DNA of 26,475 nt, taken from the IMG/VR virus record IMGVR_UViG_3300006162_000387, positions 1 to 26,475 of that record. One strand, written 5' to 3'. The notes below the pieces were generated by a model. That model was not told the origin of the DNA, ran no database searches, and saw only the letters and a list, made by a program, of their open reading frames with translations. Shown in pieces: positions 2,994-17,461 of the stretch (position 1 is the stretch's first letter; each line of letters opens with the position of its first letter). A program made the translations under genes and the position numbers. The DNA comes from a virus.

Positions 2994-3578
2994 ATGCTAA
3001 TTGCAATAGCAGGCAGTCAAGGATCTGGTAAAACAACTCTATTAAATGAACTTGCCCGAAAGGGATTCAAAGTGATCGAACGAAAAACGTCTCGATCAAT
3101 TCTCAAAGACTGGGGATACGAATTGGCTGATGTCTATAGCAATCAGCCTCTCACAGTCAAATTTCAAGACGAAATTATCAAGCGAAAGATTGAAGACGAG
3201 TGTGAAGCCGCTCAATCTGACGACATCTGGTTTACAGAGCGTACATACACTGATCTGTTCACATATGCTACCGTTGTCCTTGGATGGAATAACGAATACA
3301 GCAACTATCTAAACAACTATTATGAGCAATGCAAAGTTGCTCAAGCCACGTATAGTCATGTGTTCTATCTTGAGGGTGGAAAGTTTCAAATTGAACACGA
3401 TGGTGTAAGAGGTTCAAACCAATTCTACGGACGGATGGTTGATTTAATGATGCACGATTCCATCTATCGGATGACATCACCCGATAAATTGAGTATAATC
3501 GAAACATCAATCCTTCCGCTAAGAGTTGAAATAATTGAAGAAGAAATCGAATATATCAAAGGGAACCACAATGACTAA
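2994..3578 (+). CDS. P-loop ATPase/nucleotide kinase-like protein (AAA_28 type)
   Basis: The frame is open from 2937, but the P-loop begins five residues after the ATG at 2994, which is the natural start (194 aa). Walker A is G-S-Q-G-S-G-K-T-T at residues 7-15. A later W-F-T-E-R-T-Y-T-D segment resembles the DxT/ERT region of small nucleotide kinases. The layout resembles the NadR-like AAA_28 proteins, which bind ATP and often phosphorylate a nucleoside or nicotinamide riboside. The substrate is unknown. Its last 8 bases overlap folE2, so the two are probably translated together and may serve one nucleotide or pterin pathway. The ribosome-binding site (AGAAAG) is weak. Confidence 0.75.
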   Translation: MLIAIAGSQGSGKTTLLNELARKGFKVIERKTSRSILKDWGYELADVYSNQPLTVKFQDEIIKRKIEDECEAAQSDDIWFTERTYTDLFTYATVVLGWNNEYSNYLNNYYEQCKVAQATYSHVFYLEGGKFQIEHDGVRGSNQFYGRMVDLMMHDSIYRMTSPDKLSIIETSILPLRVEIIEEEIEYIKGNHND

Positions 3579-4632
3579 GATTCGCCACAACAACTATGAT
3601 CGTCATATGCCGCATCTTGATTTCGAGTATGATCAAGAATATTATCCAGACGACAAAGACTTACCAGATCCACAAATCGATCCAGCAATCTTTGGATCGA
3701 AAGTTCGCTTGAACAAGGTCGGCGTGACAGGCGTTGATCTTCCAGTCAACTTTATCCGTCGTGATGGAACAGCAGAAAAATTACATGCAAAAGTTTCCTT
3801 GTATGGATCACTCGATAACATCAATGCAAAGGGATTGAATCTATCACGTTTTCCAATTGTTATGCACGAGCAAATTGCAAACCATATGTCTATTGAAGGT
3901 TTGAAGAATGTCCTCGATGCACTCCAAGCAAAGCAAGGATCAAACAGCATTTATTGTAAGATGCGATTCAAGTATCCTTGGACACAGCCAGCACTGCGCA
4001 CACGTAAAGAATTAAATCCAGCCCATTACAAGGCTGGTACGGATATTACAAAAGATCCAGACTATTTTAAGACAGCAGAGGGTGTTCATCTAAGTAAGGA
4101 AAAGATGGAAGGGTTCATTTTCTATGACTGTGTTCTTGAAGGACAGAAGCATTCACATACGTTTTCACATGCGCCAGGATTTACACCATCAGAATACAAG
4201 TTCTATCTGACAGTCGAATACATTTATTCTTCAACGTGTCCTTGCTCATTCGAACTTGCACAAGATGCAATGACAAAGCGCGGTAAGGCAGCGAATGGTC
4301 ATAGCCAACGAAGTATTGGTCGTATTACTGTTCAATTCGATCCAAATAATCCAGTGTACATTGAAGACGTCGTTGAGATGGCTCGTAAGCAAGTTCCAAC
4401 AGAAGTTGTTGTTATTTGCAAGCGTCGCGATGAACAAGCGTTTGCTGAATTGAATGGTAGCAATTTGTTGTTTACAGAAGATGCAGCAAGATTATTGTAC
4501 GAAGGTCTTGATAATATGTACAATGCAGGAAGAATTAAAGACTTTAGTATTGTTACAGAACACTTGGAATCATTACATCCTTGGAGTGCAACCGCAGTTG
4601 TGAGCAAGGGCGTTGACGGAGGATTACGATAA
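3571..4632 (+). CDS. folE2: GTP cyclohydrolase type IB (FolE2)
   Basis: The start at 3571 has an AAAGGGA upstream and overlaps the previous stop (353 aa). Family motifs are clear: L-N-K-V-G-V-T-G-V-D-L-P-V near 47-59, M/L-S-R-F at 91-94, S-T-C-P-C-S at 221-226, and G-H-S-Q-R-S at 243-248. The Cys of C-P-C and the His of G-H-S-Q-R-S correspond to the catalytic metal ligands of type IB enzymes. These convert GTP to 7,8-dihydroneopterin triphosphate, the first step to folate and to preQ0/queuosine-type 7-deazaguanines. The protein is longer than the roughly 260-300 aa usual for the family because of an N-terminal extension and an insert near 135-200. In a phage it could feed DNA base modification or folate-dependent dNTP synthesis. 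No other preQ0 genes are in this window. Confidence 0.9.
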   Translation: MTKIRHNNYDRHMPHLDFEYDQEYYPDDKDLPDPQIDPAIFGSKVRLNKVGVTGVDLPVNFIRRDGTAEKLHAKVSLYGSLDNINAKGLNLSRFPIVMHEQIANHMSIEGLKNVLDALQAKQGSNSIYCKMRFKYPWTQPALRTRKELNPAHYKAGTDITKDPDYFKTAEGVHLSKEKMEGFIFYDCVLEGQKHSHTFSHAPGFTPSEYKFYLTVEYIYSSTCPCSFELAQDAMTKRGKAANGHSQRSIGRITVQFDPNNPVYIEDVVEMARKQVPTEVVVICKRRDEQAFAELNGSNLLFTEDAARLLYEGLDNMYNAGRIKDFSIVTEHLESLHPWSATAVVSKGVDGGLR

Positions 4633-8199: not shown

Positions 8200-8643
8200 A
8201 TGAACATTTTACGAGAACTCGCTGACTTTGATCGCATGGATGCGAACAAAAACAAGCCACAAGGCAACGAAACACAGATTCCTGATCAAGAAATGGATCA
8301 GCAGAATGACGTTGGCGATGTTGGTCAGGATCAAGAGCAAAACGACGATCAAGAGCAGATGGCCGTTGCAAGCCAGAATCAAGATCCAGATCGTCAAGGT
8401 TTAATTCGTACAGTCAAGGGTGCTCGTCTAATATTCAAGCGCGAATCAGAAGAAGGTGGTTTTGACGAGTTGTGGATCTACAATGTTGGTTCATTAAAAG
8501 ACGGAATGAAAATTCGCCACGCTATTCTTGCTGGCACTGATATCCCTCCAAACGCTACAAGTTCACCCGACGGCACCCAAGAGTATGATCTCTGGACAGC
8601 TGGTAATGCTGAGTTGCTTCATATCTCCGGTCTACCAAACTAA
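8200..8643 (+). CDS. Unknown phage protein with acidic Gln-rich linker, 147 aa
   Basis: Three parts are visible. A short helix comes first (MNILRELADFDRM). A disordered stretch rich in Gln, Asp, Asn and Glu follows (about residues 14-65). The C-terminal domain (about 66-147) is compact and mixed alpha/beta (GLIRTVKGARLIFKR, ELWIYNVGSL, YDLWTAGNAELLHISGLPN). Proteins with this kind of C-terminal domain seem familiar from T4-like marine phages, but I cannot name a function. The late-type octamer upstream suggests late expression, hence a virion or assembly role. The stop is just upstream of the tmRNA promoter. Confidence 0.75.
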   Translation: MNILRELADFDRMDANKNKPQGNETQIPDQEMDQQNDVGDVGQDQEQNDDQEQMAVASQNQDPDRQGLIRTVKGARLIFKRESEEGGFDELWIYNVGSLKDGMKIRHAILAGTDIPPNATSSPDGTQEYDLWTAGNAELLHISGLPN

Positions 8644-8648
8644 GCCTG

Positions 8649-8677
8649 TTGACCTTTTGTTCAAGGTCGTGTATAAA
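8649..8677 (+). promoter_or_regulatory. Promoter of the tmRNA gene
   Basis: TTGACC (8649-8654), a 17-base spacer and TATAAA (8672-8677). The -10 is part of a TATAAATA octamer (8672-8679), so both host-type and late-type transcription are possible. A 6-bp inverted repeat, GACCTT/AAGGTC (8651-8668), lies across the -35 and spacer. It could be an operator or a weak terminator hairpin for the upstream gene. Confidence 0.7.
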
Positions 8678-8690
8678 TATACTTAACAGC

Positions 8691-8749
8691 GTAAACTTTC
8701 TTAATGAAAGACGAACAAGACTGGGGTTCGACTCCCCACGGGTCCACCA
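8691..8749 (+). ncRNA. ssrA: tmRNA acceptor piece (3' half, ends in CCA)
   Basis: It ends with T stem 8722-8726/8734-8738, T loop TTCGACT (8727-8733), acceptor strand 8739-8745, discriminator A and CCA (8747-8749). Upstream, AACTTTC (8694-8700) can pair with GAAA and GTT (8848-8856) of the coding piece, a candidate for the long helix that joins the two RNAs. The 5' end is approximate. Confidence 0.85.
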
Positions 8750-8821
8750 GAAAGTGCTGACGTATGATCTACGTAGATATGATGAGCGCGCATCGTGCAT
8801 ATCGTTTCAGCATTTCCTAAT
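8750..8821 (+). other. Intervening segment of pre-tmRNA, removed on maturation
   Basis: GAAA-g-TGCTGA (8750-8760) pairs with TCAGCATTTC (8807-8816), leaving one bulged G. This brings the CCA end and the coding-piece 5' end close together. Inside lie the palindrome ATCTACGTAGAT and a GATG/CATC hairpin. By analogy with alphaproteobacterial ssrA, RNase P would cut before G8822 and tRNA 3' enzymes after A8749. Confidence 0.75.
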
Positions 8822-8990
8822 GGGCCCGCCATGGTATCGATTGGCGTGAAATAGTTCTGAAGGCGCTCGAGAGTTGACCGACGTAATCGGCATAAAACGT
8901 TAAATGCAAACGATAGCGCATTTGCAATGGCTGCTTAAAACACAGACCATGCACGAGGTGTGAAGAGCCTTGTCAAAGAAATCGACGGAA
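8822..8990 (+). ncRNA. ssrA: tmRNA coding piece (5' half with tag reading frame)
   Basis: It begins with acceptor strand GGGCCCG and the D-like loop. Next comes a helix strand AAGGC (8860-8864) that pairs with GCCTT (8967-8971) to close the coding loop. A pseudoknot-like hairpin, CCGA/TCGG (8879-8891), precedes the tag. The tag and a further CACA/TGTG pairing follow. The 3' end is set only approximately, before the terminator stem. Confidence 0.85.
8906..8938 (+). other. tmRNA tag reading frame, ANDSAFAMAA
   Basis: The resume codon is GCA at 8906. The frame reads ten residues, Ala-Asn-Asp-Ser-Ala-Phe-Ala-Met-Ala-Ala, then TAA. With the alanine carried by the tmRNA itself, the added tail is 11 residues. 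The A-N-D start and A-A end match the usual proteolysis tag, and the last two alanines are the ClpX-recognised feature. Confidence 0.88.
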
Positions 8991-9017
8991 GAGGGCGTCT
9001 TCGGACGCTCTCTTTTT
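8991..9017 (+). terminator. Intrinsic terminator of the tmRNA gene
   Basis: A 9-bp stem, GAGGGCGTC (8991-8999) with GACGCTCTC (9004-9012) and one G-T pair, is closed by a TTCG tetraloop and followed by TTTTT. This is a textbook rho-independent terminator. Confidence 0.95.
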
Positions 9018-9052
9018 ACCCTGATTTTCTGCGGGGTTAGGTGTGCCTCTCC

Positions 9053-9084: not shown

Positions 9085-9837
9085 ATGGAATACATCTATA
9101 AAACAAACTTAGATCAGATGACAATTCGTCCACCAAAGTCAAAAGTCGATGGCGATGACGACGATGATGATTTCAACAAGATGTTTCCAATACTACCAAA
9201 AAATAAACCATACAACATCTGGGAACATACGTATTCTGCTCAACAGATTCACATTTATTTCAATCAAGAAATTAAAGGACCTGAACAGTACTCTGAGATC
9301 ATCCACCGCATTAACGTAGCAGCTCCTGCAGATGTTATTTTCATTCACTTGAACACTCCTGGTGGACGTCTCGATACAGGCGTTCAACTAATCAACGCGA
9401 TGCAATCATCGCAAGCAAAGATTGTTACGATTCTTGAAGCAACTGCTTACTCACTTGGAACGTTGATCTTTTTGTCTGGCGATGAGATGATTGTACATGA
9501 CAACTGTATGATGATGATCCACAACTTCCGCGGTGGTGTTGTTGGTAAAGGACACGAACAATTAGCAGAGTTGCATTCAACAGTAAAATGGTTTACATCG
9601 ATTGCAAAGAAAGTTTATACGCCTTTCCTATCAAAGGATGAACTTGATCGTGTCATTAAAGGTGAAGATATTTGGATGACATCTGCTGACATTCGTAAAC
9701 GTCTTGATCGGATTAAGCGCGATAACACGAACAATGCTAAGGTCCTACCAAAGCCAGAAACAGAATTTGTTGATGGTGAAGAGCAAGTTCCAGCCCCTAA
9801 ACCAAGAAAACGAGCTAAAAAGTCTCCATCCCTATAA
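9085..9837 (+). CDS. ClpP-like serine protease
   Basis: The 250-aa protein has a ClpP/crotonase-type core at about residues 53-215. N-T-P-G-G at 90-94 corresponds to the oxyanion-forming N-S-P-G-G of ClpP. A-T-A-Y-S-L-G-T gives the nucleophile S123, and M-M-M-I-H-N gives the catalytic H146. The C-terminal 40 residues are basic (PKPRKRAKKSPSL), and an Asp run (D24-D29) lies near the N terminus. Both are absent from bacterial ClpP (about 200 aa). In phages such proteases can be prohead proteases or ClpP-like degradation subunits. It follows the tmRNA gene but has a terminator and a late-type octamer in between. AAGGAG marks the start. The third catalytic residue (Asp) was not placed with certainty. 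Confidence 0.88.
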   Translation: MEYIYKTNLDQMTIRPPKSKVDGDDDDDDFNKMFPILPKNKPYNIWEHTYSAQQIHIYFNQEIKGPEQYSEIIHRINVAAPADVIFIHLNTPGGRLDTGVQLINAMQSSQAKIVTILEATAYSLGTLIFLSGDEMIVHDNCMMMIHNFRGGVVGKGHEQLAELHSTVKWFTSIAKKVYTPFLSKDELDRVIKGEDIWMTSADIRKRLDRIKRDNTNNAKVLPKPETEFVDGEEQVPAPKPRKRAKKSPSL

Positions 9838-15117: not shown

Positions 15118-16451
15118 CCGAAGGATCAAAATACATTGAAGCGCAACGACGTGCATATTCAATTTATGTTATGCAGTCGCGAGCAATTCCAGTCATTACT
15201 GATGGCTTGAAGCATGCTGCTCGAAGACTTCTTTGGATCGGACGTGATGGTAAGAACTACAAGTCAGCAACGCTGGCTGGTCTTACAATGGACATCCATC
15301 CACACGATGCGCCAGAGTCAACGATCAATACACTCGCTGCTCACTATGGAAACAATGTTCCTCTGCTAACTGGTGATGGTGCCTTTGGAACACTGCTCGA
15401 ACCATACGCATTTGGTGCTTCACGATACACACACGCTGCTGTTTCGAAGTTTACGCAAGACGTTGTGTTTCGTGATATTGAAATAATTCCAATGCGTGAG
15501 AGTTATGATGGACACAACGTTGAGCCTGTCCACTTTCTACCACTTGTTCCAATTGCATTCTTGAATCCGAGCGAAGGTATTGCTATTGGGTTTAAGACAG
15601 ACATTCTTCCACGTAGCTTGGAAGACTTGATTATGATTCAAATTCAACACTTGAATGGAGTCAAGACAATCAAGGAACCAATGCCAGTATTCCTACCGCT
15701 CGATAATGCAGCACACAAGTTCGAAGTTGGTGAGAAGGGGACGTTCTATTATTTCGATGGTGAATACGAAGAAGTAAATGCAACGACTGTTCGAGTAACA
15801 AAGCTGCCTTTTGGTCTTGCTCACGAATCGTTTATCGATGGTCTCGAGAAGTTGTATGAAAAGGGACTCGTTACAGACTGGACAGATGGTTCGAAGGACG
15901 TGATCAGCGTCGTCGTCACATTCAAGAAGGGCGTTCTTCGTGGAATGGATCACACCGAAACATTGAAGACGTTGGGGTTATCAGTACGCCACAGTGAAAT
16001 CCTCAACGTTCTTGACTTTGACGGTAAGGCTGTTATTAGCGGAAGTGTTGTTTCTTTGGTTCGTCAGTTTACCGACTGGCGATTGAAGTGGTATGAAAAT
16101 CGTTATCAACGTTTGCATGATATCCTGAAAAAGGATCTTCAACGGTACTATGATATCCGTACGGCTATTAATAAGAAGATCAATGAAGCTTCGCGAAAAG
16201 CAGAAAGCCGTAGTGAATTGCGTGAGTTGATCGAGAGCTTTGGTATTGTCAATGTTGACTACATTGCTGACCTTCCTGTATATCGTTTTACAAAGGAAGA
16301 GTACGCGAAGAATGAAGCAAAGATCCACGAAAGTGAACTCCAGCTTCAATTGTACTTGGATTTGTTGGCTTCTGAACCAAAGCGTCGTAAGGTATACATT
16401 ACTGAACTTCAAGAAGTACTTGGAAAGTATAATAAGGGACAATATAAATGA
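15114..16451 (+). CDS. Type II DNA topoisomerase, DNA-cleaving A subunit (T4 gp52-like)
   Basis: The 445-aa protein matches the length of T4 gp52 (442 aa). The N terminus has Y-I-E-A-Q-R-R-A-Y-S-I-Y-V-M-Q-S-R-A-I-P, then D-G-L-K-H-A-A-R-R-L-L, the GyrA/ParC-type winged-helix entry. The nucleophile is Y105 in G-A-S-R-Y-T-H-A. The tower and coiled-coil region is at 300-430. It lacks the beta-pinwheel C-terminal domain of GyrA, as expected for phage enzymes, so it should relax rather than supercoil DNA. It works with the subunit encoded at 11874. CAGGAG precedes the start, and its stop overlaps the AAA+ gene. Confidence 0.95.
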   Translation: MTEGSKYIEAQRRAYSIYVMQSRAIPVITDGLKHAARRLLWIGRDGKNYKSATLAGLTMDIHPHDAPESTINTLAAHYGNNVPLLTGDGAFGTLLEPYAFGASRYTHAAVSKFTQDVVFRDIEIIPMRESYDGHNVEPVHFLPLVPIAFLNPSEGIAIGFKTDILPRSLEDLIMIQIQHLNGVKTIKEPMPVFLPLDNAAHKFEVGEKGTFYYFDGEYEEVNATTVRVTKLPFGLAHESFIDGLEKLYEKGLVTDWTDGSKDVISVVVTFKKGVLRGMDHTETLKTLGLSVRHSEILNVLDFDGKAVISGSVVSLVRQFTDWRLKWYENRYQRLHDILKKDLQRYYDIRTAINKKINEASRKAESRSELRELIESFGIVNVDYIADLPVYRFTKEEYAKNEAKIHESELQLQLYLDLLASEPKRRKVYITELQEVLGKYNKGQYK

Positions 16452-17461
16452 GCGAACTATCAGATCTCGAGGAATTCAACAAGCGCGTTGGTAGTGGGGA
16501 CGATCGTGATGCCGACTGTCAGCCAATTCGTGGACAGACCGTCCGAGGGAAAATGGAAGAAGTAGAGAATGCATTGAAGGATCTTCTTTATGCACACAGC
16601 AACTTGAAGAAGTGGGCTGTCTATGGTGGCAAGCGTTTTCGTCCTTGTGAGGATGCTGTTCCTCAACTTGAGGCTGGTGTATACTCTGTTGAAGCAAGCA
16701 ACGAACTTGGAATTTACTTTGAACGCAAGCAGATCAATATTGATGATCTTGTTATCCTTCCCGACACCGTGTCTGAAAAGATCATTGGCGATATCGAGCT
16801 GTTTTGGACGAAGGAAGAACACTACCGCGAGTTTGGTTTCTTGTGGAAGCGTGGCTTTATGTTTTGGGGACCTGCTGGTTCTGGTAAGACATCAACGATT
16901 CAATTGATTATGAAAAAGATCATCGAACGTGATGGTCTTGCTATTCTTGCAAGCAATCCTGAATTGACTGGTCGTGGCTTAACAATGTTGCGTGAAGTTG
17001 AACGCACGCGTCCTCTTGTTGTTATCCTCGAAGACATTGACGCGATTATTGAGTCGCATGGTGAGAGTGAACTTCTCGCCCTCCTCGACGGTGAGATTCA
17101 AATCGACAATGTTGTGTTCATTGCAACGACAAATTATCCAGAGCGTCTTGATCGTCGATTTATCAATCGTCCAAGTCGGTTTGACGTTGTCCAAAAGATT
17201 GGAATGCCTAATCCTGAGGCCCGTCGTGCATTTATTGCATTGAAGAATCCGAAGTTGAATAAATCCCAACTCGAACGTTGGGTTAAGGAGACGAAGGACT
17301 TTTCTGTTGCTCATATTAAGGAATTGATTATCTCTGTCCAAGTTCTTGGGATTCCTTTCGAGCAAGCTGCATTGCGTCTTCGTAAGATGTCCGACGTTCC
17401 TCGTTCTGGCGACTTTGATCGTAAGGTCGGCTTTAATATGAACGATGACGACGGCGAGTGA
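16448..17461 (+). CDS. AAA+ ATPase (BCS1/FtsH-like module)
   Basis: This 337-aa protein has one AAA+ module at about residues 130-330. It shows Walker A G-P-A-G-S-G-K-T at 141-148, Walker B V-V-I-L-E-D-I-D at 191-198, sensor A-T-T-N at 226-229 and an arginine-finger region F-I-N-R-P-S-R-F-D at 238-246. This form is closest to classical AAA proteins such as BCS1 rather than clamp loaders. The N-terminal 120 residues have no motif I know. Such ATPases remodel or unfold proteins. The ATG overlaps the stop of the topoisomerase A gene. A topoisomerase-associated or protease-partner role is inference. Confidence 0.88.
   Translation: MSELSDLEEFNKRVGSGDDRDADCQPIRGQTVRGKMEEVENALKDLLYAHSNLKKWAVYGGKRFRPCEDAVPQLEAGVYSVEASNELGIYFERKQINIDDLVILPDTVSEKIIGDIELFWTKEEHYREFGFLWKRGFMFWGPAGSGKTSTIQLIMKKIIERDGLAILASNPELTGRGLTMLREVERTRPLVVILEDIDAIIESHGESELLALLDGEIQIDNVVFIATTNYPERLDRRFINRPSRFDVVQKIGMPNPEARRAFIALKNPKLNKSQLERWVKETKDFSVAHIKELIISVQVLGIPFEQAALRLRKMSDVPRSGDFDRKVGFNMNDDDGE

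Follow-up and report, generated by a model that had tools for sequence, protein, structure and literature searches.

The window analysed here, a viral record of 26,475 bases amounting to a 26-kb fragment, contains a complete permuted (two-piece) tmRNA gene, or ssrA, at 8649-9017. The gene is real, and the constraint visible on its parts indicates that it is very probably functional. When the evidence is taken together, we consider it highly likely that this locus is a working permuted ssrA of betaproteobacterial type, which has become a stable gene of an uncultured T4-like phage clade and would serve to keep ribosomes free. Permuted tmRNAs in T4-like phages are already published, which limits the novelty of the gene as such; what is new, going by the contig sequences, is its retention across an uncultured T4-like clade sharing a topoisomerase gene. 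The neighbourhood, with the permuted tmRNA upstream of a phage clpP, is possibly new as well: no published description of this linkage was found, within the literature that was searched.

Identification and anatomy of the gene

ARAGORN places a permuted tmRNA at 8656-9029 on the + strand, and two Rfam models match the same region above their gathering scores: RF04321 (tmRNA_permuted) at 8687-8938, scoring 120.7 bits (gathering score 47; E 2e-23), and RF01850 (beta_tmRNA) at 8635-9018, scoring 109.2 bits (gathering score 84). The latter was the top clan model in a narrow scan, with four lower-scoring clan members left out. An initial annotation, made from the letters of the window, had claimed that a T4-like phage carries a complete permuted tmRNA gene and had proposed searches with Rfam tmRNA models and with ARAGORN in permuted mode as its check; with the permuted models significant and a permuted call obtained, the claim holds, and its span, 8684-9012, is off by no more than a few bases. 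ARAGORN returned zero tmRNA calls when the window was shuffled 200 times with a first-order Markov model, and none in the reversed window. A bimolecular fold of the two tRNA-like halves gave a modest gain over shuffles, with 10 of 200 shuffles equalling it; hence, the case is founded on the models and on comparison rather than on that fold. The locus and its downstream neighbour comprise the following features:

8649-8679, + strand: promoter-like element TTGACC-N17-TATAAA(TA) (direct reading; layout shared by four relatives)
8710-8749, + strand: acceptor piece, the 3' tRNA-like domain with T arm, 3' acceptor strand CGGGTCC and ACCA (ARAGORN; RF04321; pairing check)
8750-8821, + strand: intervening sequence of 72 nt, excision expected (boundaries from ARAGORN; fold)
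8822-8989 (3' end approximate), + strand: coding piece, with the 5' tRNA-like domain GGGCCCG...TGGTATCGA, resume region and tag frame (ARAGORN; RF04321; RF01850)
8906-8938, + strand: tag reading frame ANDSAFAMAA* (ARAGORN)
about 8990-9017, + strand: intrinsic terminator, with a 10-bp stem (one G-T), TTCG loop and T run (direct reading; end of the RF01850 match)
9085-9837, + strand: ClpP-family (S14-like) protease gene (PF00574, 51.7 bits; PHROG ATP-dependent protease; AlphaFold model)

In the ARAGORN layout, the acceptor piece precedes the coding piece and the intervening sequence lies between them, just as the initial annotation had read it: a CCA-ending acceptor piece first, then a hairpin spacer, then a coding piece with a tag frame. 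The acceptor stem (GGGCCCG/CGGGUCC) forms 7 of 7 pairs in the pairing check, G3-U70 included, and the T arm pairs at 5 of 5 positions below a TTCGACT loop, so that the 7-bp stem and the T loop described earlier are likewise borne out; the tail is ACCA. The spacer, together with the flanking acceptor strands, forms a strong hairpin (-37.9 kcal/mol, z -3.84), and the end of ANDSAFAMAA is a predicted ClpX-type degron. The promoter and the TTCG-loop terminator, also claimed at the outset, stand by direct reading; generic promoter and terminator scans of the window listed neither the element at 8649-8679 nor that at 8990-9017, and both therefore rest on direct reading, with the promoter drawing additionally on the conservation of its layout.

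That conservation is seen in the motif TTGA[CT]-N19-20-TAAATA, with 8 sites in the 235 kb of clade sequence where 1.75 would be expected, five of the eight being directly upstream of a tmRNA (in four relatives and the window). Four of the 11 clade tmRNAs have the exact TATAAATA upstream, where about 0.06 such cases would be expected. In the clade overall this motif is barely enriched (21 found versus 15.6 expected), and for this reason we did not adopt a reading of its occurrences at 8672 and 9053 as T4 late promoters.

Retention and constraint in an uncultured phage clade

The window codes for a primase, both topoisomerase II subunits, a DnaB-like helicase, a ribonucleotide reductase, a dCMP deaminase and a FolE2-type enzyme (a GTP cyclohydrolase, 3571-4632), a gene set that points to a T4-like phage. 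It also has genes for tRNA-Ala (1218-1293), tRNA-Pro (1763-1839) and a PpiC-type peptidyl-prolyl isomerase (1408-1677). When close cultured relatives were sought at the nucleotide level, a single short match emerged, in the tmRNA region, and the nearest cultured-phage topoisomerases are about 35% identical to those of the window. Relatives were defined as viral contigs matched by topoisomerase alignment (18 loci, on contigs of up to 350 kb); one other contig (L002/L012) comes from a near-identical phage. The clade is known from metagenome contigs only, and many of the records scanned are fragments.

With the near-identical record excluded, a permuted tmRNA above cut-off is present in 13 of 17 relative records and a ClpP-family gene in 14 of 17. 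Once near-identical records are grouped, by hand from their identities (G035-38; G033/G034; G032/G045; G040/G042), 11 lineages are left, or 12 with the window, and the permuted tmRNA is found in 11 of these 12, the exception (G001) being a 27-kb fragment. Permuted phage tmRNAs, it would appear, are not solely scattered recent captures and can be stable in a phage clade.

We compared acceptor stems across 22 permuted tmRNAs from phages, including 11 of the window's clade. All 22 retain 7/7 pairing and G3-U70 is invariant, with three pair types at pair 4, five at pair 5 and four at pair 6. Nine of the 11 clade tags, with differing codons, end in a hydrophobic residue followed by Ala-Ala; the two exceptional tags end in AMVA and VAAYA, and with such VA and YA ends a ClpXP degron would not be universal in the clade. 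Compensatory stem changes, constrained tag ends and the shared promoter layout, taken together, suggest that the gene is in use.

Among phage permuted tmRNAs more broadly, several (L042, L044 and related contigs; L199; L196) have tags without the hydrophobic-Ala-Ala end (AEAPKAFAAHA, ATAPKAMAAHA, ANDSQFKVAAYA and ANDENYNVAMVA), which could alter or avoid ClpXP recognition. Unusually long tags are seen in a permuted clade tmRNA (L201:1440-2000; about 34 residues, ending GGAYALAA) and in a one-piece phage tmRNA (L005:143-573; 30 residues).

A proposed role in ribosome rescue

Use of trans-translation during infection, which the initial annotation had suggested, is plausible on the strength of this conservation. 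For the window tmRNA, we infer expression, cleavage, charging and tagging along the following lines. A single precursor RNA would be made, from which host tRNA-processing enzymes would cut out the 72-nt spacer, by analogy with bacterial permuted genes, leaving two RNA pieces that would pair via the 7-bp acceptor stem. As is established for tmRNA, the G3-U70 pair would be recognised by the host alanyl-tRNA synthetase, and host SmpB and EF-Tu would bring the tmRNA to ribosomes that have stalled on a broken mRNA. ANDSAFAMAA would then be added as a tag, its hydrophobic-Ala-Ala end sending the product to host ClpX-type unfoldases; the adjacent phage ClpP may possibly join in the degradation. The likeliest purpose would be to keep ribosomes free while the phage degrades or outcompetes host mRNA.

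The assignment of these partner factors to the host follows from the phage gene content. SmpB was not detected in the 17 relative records scanned, and neither ClpX/ClpA-type AAA_2 domains nor SspB scored above cut-off in the 11 larger records searched, many records in both sets being fragments; sub-threshold AAA_2 and SspB matches occur in two relatives. On this basis, the phages would have to rely on the SmpB and ClpX of the host. The window does have an AAA ATPase gene resembling Cdc48/VCP-type domains (16448-17461), which, leaving the near-identical contig aside, was found in 3 of 10 relative records. With only these 3 of 10 relatives having the gene, it was ruled out of any conserved module as a dedicated unfoldase partner.

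The adjacent ClpP gene

An AlphaFold model of the 9085-9837 product, built from the clade alignment, has a mean pLDDT of 69.6, and its best 50 PDB matches in Foldseek are all ClpP; the predicted structure thus assigns the product a ClpP fold. Across 11 sequences, Ser123 and His146 do not vary; the alignment column of the usual Asp does. Of the 10 lineages that have both genes, 8 have the tmRNA upstream of clpP on the same strand, with 121-1108 nt between the end of the tmRNA tag and the start of the matched clpP stretch. Three contigs (L181, L177, L168) have an extra open reading frame in between. In a different phage contig (L161), a permuted tmRNA is followed, independently and at a distance of about 1.15 kb, by a more canonical ClpP.

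The recurrent linkage, its independent counterpart in L161 and the ClpP fold with its invariant Ser and His invite the alternative of a conserved tag-and-degrade module, in which the phage's tmRNA and its neighbouring ClpP would cooperate, with tagged host or phage fragments degraded by a complex of phage ClpP and host ClpX. We hold this view tentatively, as the less probable one, given several observations that run against it. The ClpP-primase-topoisomerase order is itself conserved in the clade, and the linkage could therefore be a matter of shared ancestry. The genes also part company: G001 has ClpP without a tmRNA in its 27 kb, L178/G042 has the tmRNA without ClpP, and in G039 and G043 the two are about 12 and 86 kb apart. 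Further, the alignment position of the third catalytic residue is variable, and Stenotrophomonas phage DLP_6 has a tmRNA and no ClpP, on which ground a universal tmRNA-ClpP linkage in phages was rejected. It is somewhat unlikely that these large T4-like phages inherit a two-locus module, with a two-piece tmRNA directly upstream of the phage's own ClpP, that redirects ribosome rescue and tagged-protein degradation via host SmpB and ClpX. Nevertheless, the recurrence of the site upstream of phage ClpP furnishes a testable hypothesis, namely that some phages supply the tag and part of the protease. In L178, the usual ClpP slot downstream of the tmRNA is occupied by an unrelated 317-aa protein with a HELTH metalloprotease-like motif (L178:5694-6647).

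Provenance of the phage ssrA

The initial annotation had described permuted ssrA genes as typical of alphaproteobacteria and a few other lineages, and had suggested capture from a host of that sort. With RF01850 as the best model in its clan, the window tmRNA is of betaproteobacterial and not alphaproteobacterial type. Capture as a recent event is not supported. To be sure, the betaproteobacterial model and the presence of tags ending in FAMAA in some Gallionellaceae are what one would expect had the ssrA been captured recently from the present bacterial host, still being essentially a host gene. Against this, the gene keeps the same position in divergent phages, and no bacterial ssrA much closer than the phage copies emerged from a single pattern scan.

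The comparison with bacterial ssrA genes that had been proposed at the outset was made with a tree of 48 tmRNA cores (about 178 columns), its bacterial members coming from one pattern scan and hence a biased sample. In this weakly resolved tree, the window falls next to clade phages and outside the bacterial sequences, with mostly low support and two clade members placed elsewhere. Low support, the short alignment and the biased bacterial sample also mean that the tree does not reach a proof of phage monophyly. The shared locus and the tree placement together disfavour a recent capture, which we regard as improbable. An ancient betaproteobacterial-type ancestry is plausible, and permuted tmRNAs may have been acquired repeatedly. 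Permuted tmRNA genes also occur on plasmid p2 of Cupriavidus pinatubonensis HN-2 (L062 and L134; NZ_CP080769.1), and the plasmid tmRNA L062 groups with the phage tmRNA L039 with a support of 99.

Relationship to other phage tmRNAs

Phage tmRNAs have been catalogued previously: a survey of 18,146 phage genomes reported tmRNAs in 402, with 133 unique structures, of which 53 were proposed as two-piece (PMC9004378), and a 2025 database holds 79 phage tmRNA sequences and is the source of the merged model RF04321 (PMC11915505). Huge phages are reported to carry both tmRNA and SmpB (PMC7162821). A close precedent is Melnitz, a T4-like myophage of Methylophilales, whose two-piece tmRNA was published in 2022 along with a proposal of trans-translation in infection (PMC9004378); that complete permuted ssrA belongs to the alphaproteobacterial type and has a predicted glutamine riboswitch, whereas the window gene is of beta type, stands beside clpP and belongs to another phage lineage. 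Stenotrophomonas phage Marzo (Menderavirus) is likewise T4-like, with a tmRNA called permuted by ARAGORN and described as beta-class (PMC8928761); it differs in that this tmRNA is within a tRNA cluster, with no ClpP gene among its annotated neighbours. The permuted tmRNAs of betaproteobacteria themselves (RF01850; RF04321) share with the window the gene order, the G3-U70 acceptor stem and a tag frame of the form AND...AA; their usual tag is ANDERFALAA, in contrast to the ANDSAFAMAA, 72-nt spacer and phage-borne setting of the window gene.

A different use of a phage tmRNA is known from a single phage, the mycobacteriophage DS6A, whose CDS-less tmRNA is reported to compete with or inhibit the host tmRNA (PMC11915505). 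An equivalent antagonistic role for the window RNA strikes us as very improbable, as it retains an intact tag frame, resume region and degron-like end, all under constraint, unlike DS6A with its missing coding part. The absence of a tmRNA from the 27 kb of G001 might hint at a non-functional passenger or a decaying copy, a notion that we dismiss in view of the compensatory acceptor-stem changes, intact tags and conserved promoter layout.

One-piece tmRNAs were called in contigs L027, L030 and L031. The tmRNAs of Streptomyces phages are one-piece and not permuted; they and those of other phages resemble the window gene in being phage-encoded and specifying a degron-ending tag. Permuted tmRNAs are also found in cultured Stenotrophomonas (the T4-like Marzo and DLP_6), Xanthomonas and Synechococcus phages. 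Several deposited phage genomes contain such genes without annotation: ARAGORN finds a permuted tmRNA in DLP_6 (L004:5832-6175; KU682439.2), unannotated in that record, and in two more cultured phages (L203:4801-5219, ON615601.1; L204:3940-4368, PQ569993.1), where it is again unannotated.
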